A stretch of 64,000 bases of DNA from Lysinibacillus agricola. GTDB taxonomy: Bacteria > Bacillota > Bacilli > Bacillales_A > Planococcaceae. The notes below the pieces were generated by a model. The model was not told the DNA's origin and did no database searches. It saw only the letters and a list, made by a program, of their open reading frames with translations. Location: assembly GCF_016638705.1 (NCBI RefSeq), contig NZ_CP067341.1, positions 2,607,501-2,671,500 on the forward strand, given 5' to 3'. A program made the position numbers and the translations under genes. Positions 13,826-63,612 of the stretch are shown here, piece after piece (the stretch's first letter is position 1; every line of letters begins with the position of its first letter).

Positions 13826-13852
13826 AGTACTGCAAAAAATCATTGCAGTACT
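13826..13852 (+). terminator. Terminator of fabZ
   Basis: AGTACTGCA (13826-13834) pairs with TGCAGTACT (13844-13852), followed by TTTTGTT. Confidence 0.85.
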
Positions 13853-13952
13853 TTTGTTCTGTATATAAAGGATTTTTAAAATAGTAGTTGAATCATACAA
13901 TAAATGGAATACTTCGAAATGGAGGTGGTTACAGATTTGCCAAACGAGAAAG

Positions 13953-14363
13953 CCCATGCAGGGTGTAGCACGTCTTTAGACATGGGATGAAAGTGAGGTC
14001 AGACAAGAGGTACCTTAATTGTCTGAAAGGGTGTTATACTTCATGTATAGACAAGTAAAGTCTATAAAATACGCTCGTTCATTGAAAATTGGATATTGTA
14101 TAAAGGTTCGATAGCCTAATTCATGCTATCGGTAAAACAATATGTGTCGTCATGAAAAAGACGCTAAAACACATCGAACGAAACCAACTATACGCTATGG
14201 TAACAGTAGTGTAGCCCTATCTGCTATATGCACTGGATAGGGAGGGGTAATGGGATACCCCAATCTTGAGAGCTGTTCAAAACAGAAATGGACTGCGAAC
14301 GCTTAGTTACTCAGGAATCCCACTGACATTAGTCAGCTTGTCCCTTTAGGGGTGGGAGTCTCA
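13953..14363 (+). ncRNA. Structured RNA resembling an IS200/IS605 or ISC guide RNA, without ORF
   Basis: About 410 bases without a useful ORF fold into a dense series of local helices. Clear pairs are 13953-13958 with 13981-13986, 13999-14006 with 14019-14026, 14029-14034 with 14071-14076, 14046-14052 with 14060-14066, 14110-14115 with 14125-14130, and 14043-14051 region excluded. Further pairs are 14143-14151 with 14160-14173, 14215-14221 with 14236-14242, 14244-14249 with 14256-14261 and 14273-14277 with 14281-14285. The 3' end is TACTCAGGAATCCCAC followed by two small hairpins and GTGGGAGTCTCAA, where TCCCAC (14318-14323) closes with GTGGGA (14352-14357). That ending is what I recall for right ends and omega RNAs of TnpB elements. 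GTGA and ATGA, target motifs known for HEARO/ISC RNAs, occur at 13987-13996. No tnpB or iscB gene is present. Assignment to one family is not certain. Confidence 0.55.
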
Positions 14364-14364
14364 A

Positions 14365-14541
14365 ATGAACTATCCCTTCGCTCTTTATATAGCTACTTGT
14401 TTCATGCAATTTATCATCCTCACGAACATCAGATTATTAAATGGTCAATGGAAGGGAATTACGATGTGGCTATGTACAGGTATCTTTATTTTCTCAAGTG
14501 CGATTTTCATCTCAAGCAGATTAAATAAAGTGAAACGTTAA
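14365..14541 (+). CDS. Small two-helix membrane protein (58 residues), 5' end possibly displaced
   Basis: The frame begins MNYPFALYIATCFMQF immediately at the end of the structured RNA element and contains two hydrophobic segments (about residues 5-22 and 33-50), ending SRLNKVKR. No good ribosome site lies directly upstream. A GGAGGTGG site lies at 13921-13928, just before the element, so the element may have been inserted at the start of this gene. Function unknown. Confidence 0.45.
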   Translation: MNYPFALYIATCFMQFIILTNIRLLNGQWKGITMWLCTGIFIFSSAIFISSRLNKVKR

Positions 14542-14628
14542 TCCTTTGGGGTCTTCACCAATCGGGCTTTTACGGGCAGTTAATCTCTCAATTCGCTGAA
14601 TTTTGAGGGGGGGCCTTGTGTAGCTTTG

Positions 14629-20801: not shown

Positions 20802-22264
20802 TGGTACCTGTAGTTAGGACACTTGAAAAAGAGTGTGCTAACTGCGGGTATTTTTTATATACTAGACTTTCAAGATTAAAGGACGGAACTAGGGGCTACT
20901 ATGAGTAAAATTATATTTTCACCAAAACAGATACTACAACTTCAAAAAAATCCAAACGTACAACAGGTTAGCGAACGTACGATTACCTATACAGATACAT
21001 TTAAGAGTCAATTCATTGATGAATACTTCGCAGGGAAAACACCGAGACAAATTTTTAAGGAATATGGCTTTGATGAAGAGATAATTGGGATCAAACGTAT
21101 TGAACAATCAGCCTTTCGTTGGCGTAAAGCGTATGAAAAGAACGGCTTAATTGGCTTAACGGATACACGAAAATCTGGATCAGGTAGACCAATTAAACGC
21201 GAATTAACAGCCGCAGAAGTCATTGAAAGACAAGCTGCACGCATTCAACTATTGGAGGGGCAAGTAGATTTACTAAAAAAGCTCGAAGCGACAGAAAGGG
21301 GGCTGCTAAACGACAGCCAAAAACTAAGCACAAATAAGGTCTTTCAACTCATTTCAGATACGCTCACTCAGTTTCCATTTGAACGGATGGTGACGTATTT
21401 TTGTAACCTCTTAAAGGTTTCTCGTTCAGGCTATTATAGCTATTTACAGGCGAGTGATGCGCGAGCCTTGAGAGAACAGAAGGATTTAAAGGCACGCGAT
21501 TTGATTTTAAAAGCCTTTGATCGTCGTGGTTATAAGAAAGGCTCTCGTTCGATTAAAATGACACTCGAGCAGGATTTTCAATGTGTGATGAGCCGTAAAA
21601 AAATCCAGCGTATTATGCGCAAGTTCGGGATTGTCTGCCCGCATCGTAAACCGAATCCATATAAACAAATGGCGAAAGCAACGAAGGAACATCGTGTTGT
21701 GCCAAATAAATTAAATCGTGAATTTAAGCAAGGTATCCCTGGGAAAGTATTATTAACGGACATCAGCTATGTGCCATATAACGGAAAGTGTATGGCTTAT
21801 TTGTCGACGATAAAAGATGCCTCGACGAACGAAATTTTAGCGTACCATGTCTCAGATCGAATCACGCTCGAAATCGCTACGGAAACGATTAAAAAATTGA
21901 TCAGTAATAAGCGCGTTCAGCTTCATTCAGAGGCCTTTATCCATTCAGATCAAGGGGTTCACTATACAAGCCCACGCTATCAAACGCTCTTAAAAAAACA
22001 TGGCTTAGGTCAATCGATGTCACGCCGAGGAAACTGTTGGGACAATGCGCCACAGGAATCGTTTTTCGGTCATTTTAAAGACGAAGTAGACTTTAGCTCC
22101 TTGAAGACACTTGAGGAACTAAAAGCCAAAATCAATCACTACATGGTCTATTACAATAATTATCGTTATCAATGGAATCTAAAAAGGATGGCTCCTGTAC
22201 AATACAGAAACCATCTCTTAGCTGCTTAATCTCTTTTTTTAGTTTGTCCTTGACTTGGGTACCA
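20802..22264 (+). mobile_element. IS3-family insertion sequence
   Basis: The element is bounded by TGGTACCTGTAGTTAGGACA on the left and, inverted, TGGTACCCAAGTCAAGGACA on the right. It carries one intact transposase. No exact duplication abuts the ends. TAAT occurs just outside at 20797-20800 and at 22268-22271, three bases beyond the assigned right end, so the ends may need adjusting by a few bases. It looks intact. Confidence 0.85.
20901..22229 (+). CDS. IS3-family transposase, single fused ORF
   Basis: The 442-residue protein has an N-terminal helix-turn-helix region, a leucine-zipper-like stretch (IERQAARIQLLEGQVDLLKK), an HTH_21-like region (AFDRRGYKKGSRSIKMTLEQ) and an rve integrase domain. 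The DDE residues lie in LLTDISYV, IHSDQGVHYTS and NAPQESFFGHFK. Most IS3 elements encode OrfA and OrfB joined by a programmed -1 frameshift. Here one continuous frame encodes the full protein, as in a subset of the family. Confidence 0.92.
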   Translation: MSKIIFSPKQILQLQKNPNVQQVSERTITYTDTFKSQFIDEYFAGKTPRQIFKEYGFDEEIIGIKRIEQSAFRWRKAYEKNGLIGLTDTRKSGSGRPIKRELTAAEVIERQAARIQLLEGQVDLLKKLEATERGLLNDSQKLSTNKVFQLISDTLTQFPFERMVTYFCNLLKVSRSGYYSYLQASDARALREQKDLKARDLILKAFDRRGYKKGSRSIKMTLEQDFQCVMSRKKIQRIMRKFGIVCPHRKPNPYKQMAKATKEHRVVPNKLNREFKQGIPGKVLLTDISYVPYNGKCMAYLSTIKDASTNEILAYHVSDRITLEIATETIKKLISNKRVQLHSEAFIHSDQGVHYTSPRYQTLLKKHGLGQSMSRRGNCWDNAPQESFFGHFKDEVDFSSLKTLEELKAKINHYMVYYNNYRYQWNLKRMAPVQYRNHLLAA

Positions 22265-50065: not shown

Positions 50066-50330
50066 TTCTATTGTGAGGTAGAGGCGCGGTATTTATTAGT
50101 TCATTGTTGAGTGCAAGCAAGCGAAGACGCAATGGAGAAGGAAATATCGCCGAAGTATAAAAGGAGCTCGTACTTTTATGCTGGGTCTGCAGTGAATAAG
50201 TGCAGGACTGTCCTAGTAAATTACTTTCCAGATTTACTAGGTTGTGCTATCTCGGAATGATGGAATAATAGTGAGGATTTGGGCAACTGTTAAAAAAGTA
50301 AGACCTAAGTTCAGAACTTAGGTCTTTTTT
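50066..50330 (+). promoter_or_regulatory. Lysine riboswitch (L-box) with terminator
   Basis: The conserved L-box blocks are all present in order: GTGAGGTAGAGGCGC (50073-50087), GAAGGAAATATCGCCGAAG, GCTGGGTCTGC and GTGCAGGACTGTC. A terminator follows: AAGACCTAAGTT (50300-50311) with AACTTAGGTCTT (50315-50326) and a T run. Lysine binding would favour the terminator and switch off the downstream ABC transporter. This identifies lysine as the probable transport substrate. Confidence 0.93.
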
Positions 50331-63228: not shown

Positions 63229-63290
63229 ATTCACATATTACAAAAAGTGATCGCGTTAGTTCGGTACTCTTTGTAATATGTGAATTTTTT
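63229..63290 (+). promoter_or_regulatory. Terminator-like hairpin in the cold-shock leader
   Basis: ATTCACATATTACAAA (63229-63244) pairs perfectly with TTTGTAATATGTGAAT (63270-63285), followed by six Ts. It lies between promoter and gene, so it would act as an attenuator or as a cold-sensitive leader structure. Confidence 0.75.
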
Positions 63291-63345
63291 ACATTCGTGA
63301 AGAAATTACATATTGTTCACTTTTATTTTTTGGAGGTTTTCTTAA

Positions 63346-63546
63346 ATGAAACAAGGTACAGTAAAATGGTTTAACTCAGAAAAAGGTTTTGGATTCATCG
63401 AAGTTGAAGGTGAAAACGACGTATTCGTACACTTCTCAGCTATCCAAGGCGAAGGTTTCAAAACTCTTGACGAAGGTCAAAAAGTGGAATTCGAAGTTGT
63501 AGATGGCAACCGCGGACCACAAGCTGCTAACGTAACTAAACTTTAA
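63346..63546 (+). CDS. Cold-shock protein (CspA family)
   Basis: The 66-residue protein is a complete cold-shock domain with RNA-binding motifs KGFGFI and VFVHF, beginning [12 protein letters not shown] and ending NVTKL. It binds single-stranded RNA as a chaperone in the cytoplasm. GGAGG lies ahead of the ATG. It has its own strong promoter, a long structured leader and a terminator, typical of csp genes. Which paralogue it is (B, C or D type) cannot be decided. Confidence 0.95.
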
Positions 63547-63581
63547 TTCTCAGTAATTAAAATTACATTCGTTAAACCTAA

Positions 63582-63612
63582 GGCATCCTATTGATATAGG
63601 ATGTCTTTTTTT
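63582..63612 (+). terminator. Terminator of the cold-shock gene
   Basis: GGCATCCTA (63582-63590) pairs with TAGGATGTC (63597-63605), followed by a T run. Confidence 0.85.

Follow-up and report, generated by a model that had tools for sequence, protein, structure and literature searches.

The closest described relatives of the element reported here are the IS200/IS605 tnpA-tnpB elements with an omega-RNA (reRNA). It resembles them in its TTAC-type target, hairpin ends, covarying right-end scaffold and a flank in guide position, but it lacks tnpA and tnpB and has a leader RNA instead. TnpB guide RNAs are usually described as derived from the tnpB transcript. Structured RNAs of transposon-linked nucleases are represented in Rfam by IS605-orfB-I (RF03065) and HEARO (RF02033); the element is like these in kind, but matches neither. 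Both families are named in PMC11701678. ORF-less IStrons, such as derivatives of BcISt1, also have no ORFs and retain RNA and ends; according to PMC4227781 they contain a group I intron and IS607-type parts, whereas neither was detected in our element. With the ORF-less IStrons, gene-less elements that keep their RNA are already known, and what is new here is the leader. This leader contains a sequence resembling boxA of rRNA operons. As described in PMC7862264, boxA also occurs upstream of CRISPR arrays (given as GTTCTTTAAAA for Legionella), and the likeness lies in a boxA-like sequence ahead of an untranslated RNA, which in CRISPR is a guide RNA. In contrast to both known settings, the sequence described here lies within a mobile element and is followed by a conserved nested hairpin, and its role in antitermination is putative.

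Extent, insertion site and copies of the element

We analyzed a 64,000-nucleotide stretch of the Lysinibacillus agricola genome (the window). Copies and empty sites define a complete, ORF-less IS200/IS605-type element of 432 bp at 13933..14364 (+ strand), directly 3' of the motif TTAC (13929..13932, +). The earlier note had located a structured RNA at 13953-14363, which is the right place but slightly short. Its description as ORF-less and structured was borne out: the ORF listing contains no ORF of at least 50 amino acids wholly within the element, and neither the 432-nt element (z -3.1) nor the 337-nt likely transcript (z -3.5) was matched in folding by any of 100 shuffles. Covariation, described below, provided the stronger test.

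A second copy with 98% identity is present in the same genome (C1:92663), and further copies were found in other genera. Among 32 genomes of the genus (the window's own among them), 12 matched the element or its flank, and five of these (L011, L012, L014, L018 and L025) have the flanking gene without the element. The uninterrupted junction reads GGTTAC|ATGAA in L018 and L025; other bases precede ATGAA in L011, L012 and L014, and this start of the gene is kept in all five. From these empty sites in congeners we conclude that the insertion was exact and that it cut a 58-residue gene (14365..14541, +), for which no Pfam family was found, off from its ribosome-binding site. That site (13921-13926) now lies 432 bp farther from the start codon, on the upstream side.

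TTAC, which by analogy we take to be the TnpB TAM, stands in the 5' flank in 10 of 10 aligned copies, a set that leaves aside the other-ended copies of Ohessyouella and the L133 group. The insertion-site script left 9 of 26 sites unresolved. Exact insertion on the 3' side of one and the same short motif, the empty site in congeners, and ends common to tnpA-bearing elements agree with membership in IS200/IS605. Read from their flanks, the L087 copy lies within a permease-like coding frame on the same strand and the L082 copy within an integrase-like coding frame on the opposite strand. There was no blastn match to the element in phages and no exact match to one sequence pattern in viral contigs. 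The GTGA and ATGA motifs, previously suggested as HEARO-type targets, are uninformative: the neighboring gene starts with the ATGA that follows the right end, and the motif that recurs on the left side of the 10 aligned copies is TTAC.

Two observations concern the surroundings of the copies. Just beyond the left edge of the window (L003, C1:2607327-2607410) a related element has left a remnant of its right end (83-84% over approximately 82 nt), with no TnpB match at this locus. A Bacillaceae-1 RNA (RF01690) is located at L002 1107-1174, approximately 330 bp upstream of the second copy.

Ends and probable guide RNA scaffold

Element positions 1-71 (in some cases to 84) and 265-432 match both ends of tnpA-tnpB elements of the genus, the family and plasmids, while in the same comparison the middle had no match. 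The left end (13933..14003, +) includes a hairpin at 13952-13986, and parts of element positions 1-84 match the left ends of L019, L020, L056 and L057. The last approximately 168 nt (14197..14364, +) are homologous to the tnpB 3' end plus right end, with matches to L027, L055, L056 and L035. They terminate in a right-end hairpin (14315..14360, +) that comprises helices 8-10 of the right-part structure and contains the inverted repeat 14315-14323/14352-14360. Proteins representative of the tnpA-tnpB relatives belong to the Y1 transposases (PF01797) and to TnpB, the latter with a Cas12f1-like TNB domain (PF07282). The terminal sequences TACTCAGGAATCCCAC and GTGGGAGTCTCAA, likened in the earlier note to those of tnpB elements, are present, and the tnpA/tnpB relatives have the same ends.

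The right part was aligned for 31 sequences (19 ORF-less and 12 with tnpB), leaving out the loci that the pattern missed (ORF-less, 6 of 25; tnpB, 7 of 19). Of 1511 cells, 98.1% pair, compared to 84.5% after shuffling, and 186 double-change cells were counted versus 47 in shuffles; none of 500 shuffles reached the observed value in any of the five measures. Both sides have changed in 27 of 50 pairs, and slid controls pair in 32-44%. These figures, like those for the middle given below, are favored by the fact that the structures were derived from the tested alignments themselves. Pairing is kept in ORF-less copies (904/923 cells) and tnpB loci (578/588) alike, and in the window copy throughout (50/50). 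A tnpB-like GGTAATAGCCAATCAGCCTAA stretch persists in some ORF-less copies; in the window copy it is altered, yet the adjoining helix is kept through compensating changes. The covariation of the right part thus looks like that of a guide RNA scaffold under selection.

Together, homology to tnpB right ends and covariation uphold the earlier proposal of a TnpB-type (omega) RNA scaffold. The proposed guide position also held, since the flank right after 14364 occupies it: the predicted guide, the first approximately 16-20 nt of the flank (14365..14384, +), which we place there on the basis of TnpB biology, is the start of the 58-residue gene. Very probably, the locus is an IS200/IS605 element that is non-autonomous and carries a guide RNA scaffold of the TnpB type. 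Among the loci compared, L058 (CP079755.1, labeled Klebsiella grimontii plasmid) has a tnpA-tnpB element of Bacillota type next to genes for DUF4257 and signal peptidase, and this record is possibly a mixed assembly.

A conserved leader RNA with a boxA-like sequence

The middle of the element, which the earlier note had not singled out, holds a leader RNA module (14069..14193, +). Our model R1 scores it at 130 bits, the window copy being among the model's building sequences. Ahead of it lies hairpin P0 (TATAGAC/GTCTATA; 14046..14066, +), present in many near copies. The core common to the groups consists of the boxA-like sequence, helix P2, GGTT, hairpin P3 and GTAAAAY. In the window, P2 (14093-14099/14137-14143) encloses the P3 hairpin and GTAAAAC (14093..14143, +), and both sides have changed in 10 of 15 pairs. 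The stem-loop P4, GTGTCGTC...GACG..AAAACAC (14144..14172, +), was not seen in the L133-L148 group and has little covariation support because its inner stem is nearly invariant. In an alignment of 28 sequences, 96.0% of cells are paired versus 80.3% after shuffling, with 103 versus 31 double-change cells and a covariation score of 0.447 versus 0.148; each of these values was reached by 0 of 500 shuffles, and two cruder measures by 5 and 8 of 500. Left out of this alignment were two sequences cut at contig ends, those with fewer than 75 bases before the pattern (e.g., L034 and L052) and duplicates. A closing stem P1 around the leader was rejected as a part of it: its mean of 5.1 bp hardly exceeds the swapped and shuffled controls (4.7 each).

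The boxA-like sequence GTTCATTGAAAATTGGATA (14077..14095, +) shares 17 of its 19 bases with six 16S-23S spacers of its own genome, whose sequence we take to be boxA. The pattern GTTCNTTGAAAANTNRATA has eight matches in this genome, namely the two elements and six Rfam-confirmed 16S-23S spacers, and the reversed control has none. The likeness is less clear in other lineages. The strict form G.TC.TTGAAAA occurs in 22 of 36 nonredundant leader copies, and the sequence is degraded in the L125-L128 group. Its GTTC half reads GATC in D. acididurans; in Ohessyouella it reads GAAC, and the whole sequence there is GGAACATTGAAAA. A looser pattern gave 38 matches in 13 genomes versus 6 with the reversed control (in drafts, places not individually verified). 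No rRNA counterpart was seen in G262 and G263, because the matches there have the element's own form (4/4 and 5/6, respectively), and Ohessyouella has no clear rRNA counterpart by this pattern. The conservation of P3, GGTT and GTAAAAY equals or exceeds that of boxA. That the leader works as a boxA-type antitermination leader we consider slightly less likely than not.

We also looked for promoters. In the L137-L139 copies, a good promoter (TTTACA, spacing of 17, TGnTAAAAT-like) is located shortly ahead of boxA, and internal transcription is likely for some members of the element, as judged from such sequences. In the window copy, a consensus scan detected no sigma-70 promoter on the element's strand. 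A possible extended -10 (TGTTATACT; 14032..14040, +), TGnTAnAnT-like in several copies and weak in this one, is all that is visible there, and internal transcription of the window copy is putative.

The exact leader pattern matched 30 stretches in a collection of species genomes, from Lysinibacillus, Caryophanon, Metalysinibacillus, Virgibacillus, Bacillus, Aneurinibacillus, Brevibacillus, Desulfosporosinus and Ohessyouella. Model R1 found the leader in 41 of 398 sampled genomes of the class Bacilli (20 of 145 genera) and in 2 of 391 genomes of Ohessyouella's class; these counts are lower bounds, because the filters were strict and few candidates were scored per genome. The Ohessyouella leader core is 72% identical to that of the window. 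Six further leader matches (L150, L152, L154 and L156-L158) come from one genome, G725, of the same class as Ohessyouella, and the two of these loci that were read, L154 and L156, end differently again (...GAAGTAGTTCACA). Searches of open-licence literature found no title or beginning of an abstract describing the leader or such elements.

The leader was not seen beside tnpB in 57 TnpB loci searched with model R1. These comprise 37 of the 58 loci searched alongside the window, which hold a TnpB match of at least 150 residues, and all 20 loci of a second set, in which the best leader match was a 21-base piece (14 bits, E 0.7). Among the window and the 58 loci, strong leader matches were found in the window, L057, L062, L080, L087 (two) and L088. 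Of these, only L057 has a tnpB as well; it is a plasmid stretch of 50 kb, and approximately 19 kb separate tnpB from the leader. Two rRNA-spacer loci score 22 and 19 bits. Conversely, seven TnpB queries against 60 leader loci (some redundant, with limited flanks) gave matches in two, L127 and L068, neither of them between the leader and the right end.

Leaders of the different groups are joined to different ends. The ORF-less copies of Ohessyouella match a tnpA-tnpB element of their own genome (left end, 95% over 61 nt; right end, 97% over 190 nt) and, in the same search, had no match to window-type tnpB loci. Right ends likewise match tnpB loci of the same genome in D. acididurans (95%), Bacillus V3-13 (98%) and G063 (94%). 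Right ends of further groups match TnpB loci either of their own genome or of others: L125 (L176, 94%), L145 and L147 (L168 and L177, 90%), L133, L137 and L139 (L173, L159 and L172, 80-87%, with L133 at 87%) and L140 and L142 (L167, 75-80%, with L140 at 80%); L124, L141 and L144 gave weak matches. The TnpB proteins of the window type include those of D. acididurans (55%) and L176 (68%). Other groups are L167 (40% to the window type), L168/L177, L159/L173 (53-55% to L168/L177) and L099 of Ohessyouella; between the window type, the L168/L159 pair of groups and L099, identity is below 30% where alignable. In total, right ends belonging to five TnpB groups, with mutual identity of at most 55%, were found joined to the leader. 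The simplest account of these comparisons would be one leader joined repeatedly to different ends. Tentatively, a cassette of boxA and a nested, nut-like hairpin might have been joined again and again to unrelated IS200/IS605 ends, giving a widespread gene-less class that makes TnpB guide RNAs on their own, with antitermination in the manner of rRNA operons, parallel to the boxA leaders of CRISPR arrays.

TnpB in host genomes and weighing of explanations

In the sample of 398 genomes, TnpB is present in 40 of 41 leader-bearing genomes versus 170 of 357 without the leader (Fisher p 3e-11; compiled by eye from two genome lists; related genomes do not count as independent cases). The single leader-bearing genome without TnpB is that of the window, in which we found neither TnpB (PF07282) nor TnpA (PF01797), the search for the latter being positive in 5 of 5 other genomes; single-protein searches, run without a positive control, were also empty. 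The absence of TnpA lowers the present mobility of the element in this host and leaves its descent unaffected. Its two copies are probably stranded, because neither protein was found, unless a plasmid supplies them. The suggestion that a nuclease encoded elsewhere uses the RNA in trans is not supported for the window's genome; it is plausible in the other leader-bearing genomes, because TnpB is present in all 40 of them in the sample and in 15 of 15 in a separate search.

We consider it rather likely that this is a non-autonomous element which produces a guide RNA of its own downstream of a boxA-type leader, in the following manner. TnpA acting in trans would recognize the hairpin ends and insert the element 3' of TTAC. 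A leader RNA followed by the omega-RNA has taken the place of tnpA-tnpB, and transcription would begin within the element. The boxA-like sequence and the nested hairpin would recruit NusB and S10 for antitermination, or another RNA-binding factor of equivalent function, so that an untranslated RNA could run through the scaffold, across the right end and into the flank, the first bases of which would serve as the guide. After excision, TnpB supplied in trans would cut the empty TTAC site, and the element would be restored. If this is true, TnpB guides are produced in trans as well, by a class of elements that have no genes but a conserved leader of their own, and a single TnpB may serve several elements. 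Guide RNAs of mobile elements and CRISPR arrays would then have met the problem of transcribing an untranslated RNA similarly. The leader model makes such elements findable and opens clear tests of a role for boxA beyond rRNA in Bacillota.

IS elements commonly give rise to non-autonomous derivatives, and a plain, MITE-like deletion derivative whose ends are retained for TnpA and whose RNA is nonfunctional would suit a genome without TnpA and TnpB. Against it stand a middle unmatched in tnpA-tnpB elements, strong covariation in middle and scaffold, and a leader common to elements with different ends. Co-occurrence with TnpB also speaks against it, although a MITE too would need its IS family nearby; overall, we regard this explanation as improbable. 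Somewhat better placed, if still unlikely, is the reading that the leader is chiefly a domain for processing or protection (or a ribozyme), defining where the omega-RNA begins; the boxA likeness would then be incidental or serve something other than antitermination. In the window's group the right-end homology starts shortly after the leader, as such a domain would have it, and the high conservation of P3, GGTT and GTAAAAY points the same way. The agreement of the 19-mer with six rRNA spacers and the lack of a match to any Rfam family at E<=10 argue against this reading.

Self-splicing would repair an insertion between ribosome-binding site and ATG, and ORF-less IStrons, in which a group I intron is combined with an IS, do exist (PMC4227781). 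Nevertheless, the element is very improbably one of them: searches run without a positive control detected no Rfam intron, and no group I intron core, in the window at E<=10 or in 14 other ORF-less loci at gathering cutoffs, and the L082 copy, as its flanks read, interrupts its integrase-like frame in antisense. Even further from the evidence is a HEARO/IscB omega-RNA, which the earlier note had suggested. A cmscan of 13850-14600 matched neither HEARO (RF02033) nor any other known RNA family at E<=10, and the same-ended relatives carry tnpA and a TnpB with the Cas12f1-like domain, so this part of the earlier reading can practically be dismissed while its TnpB-type part stands.

Elsewhere in the window, Rfam identified a lysine riboswitch (50071-50257) and a cspA thermoregulator (63278-63610), and a 442-residue ORF (20901-22229) reads like an IS3-type transposase.
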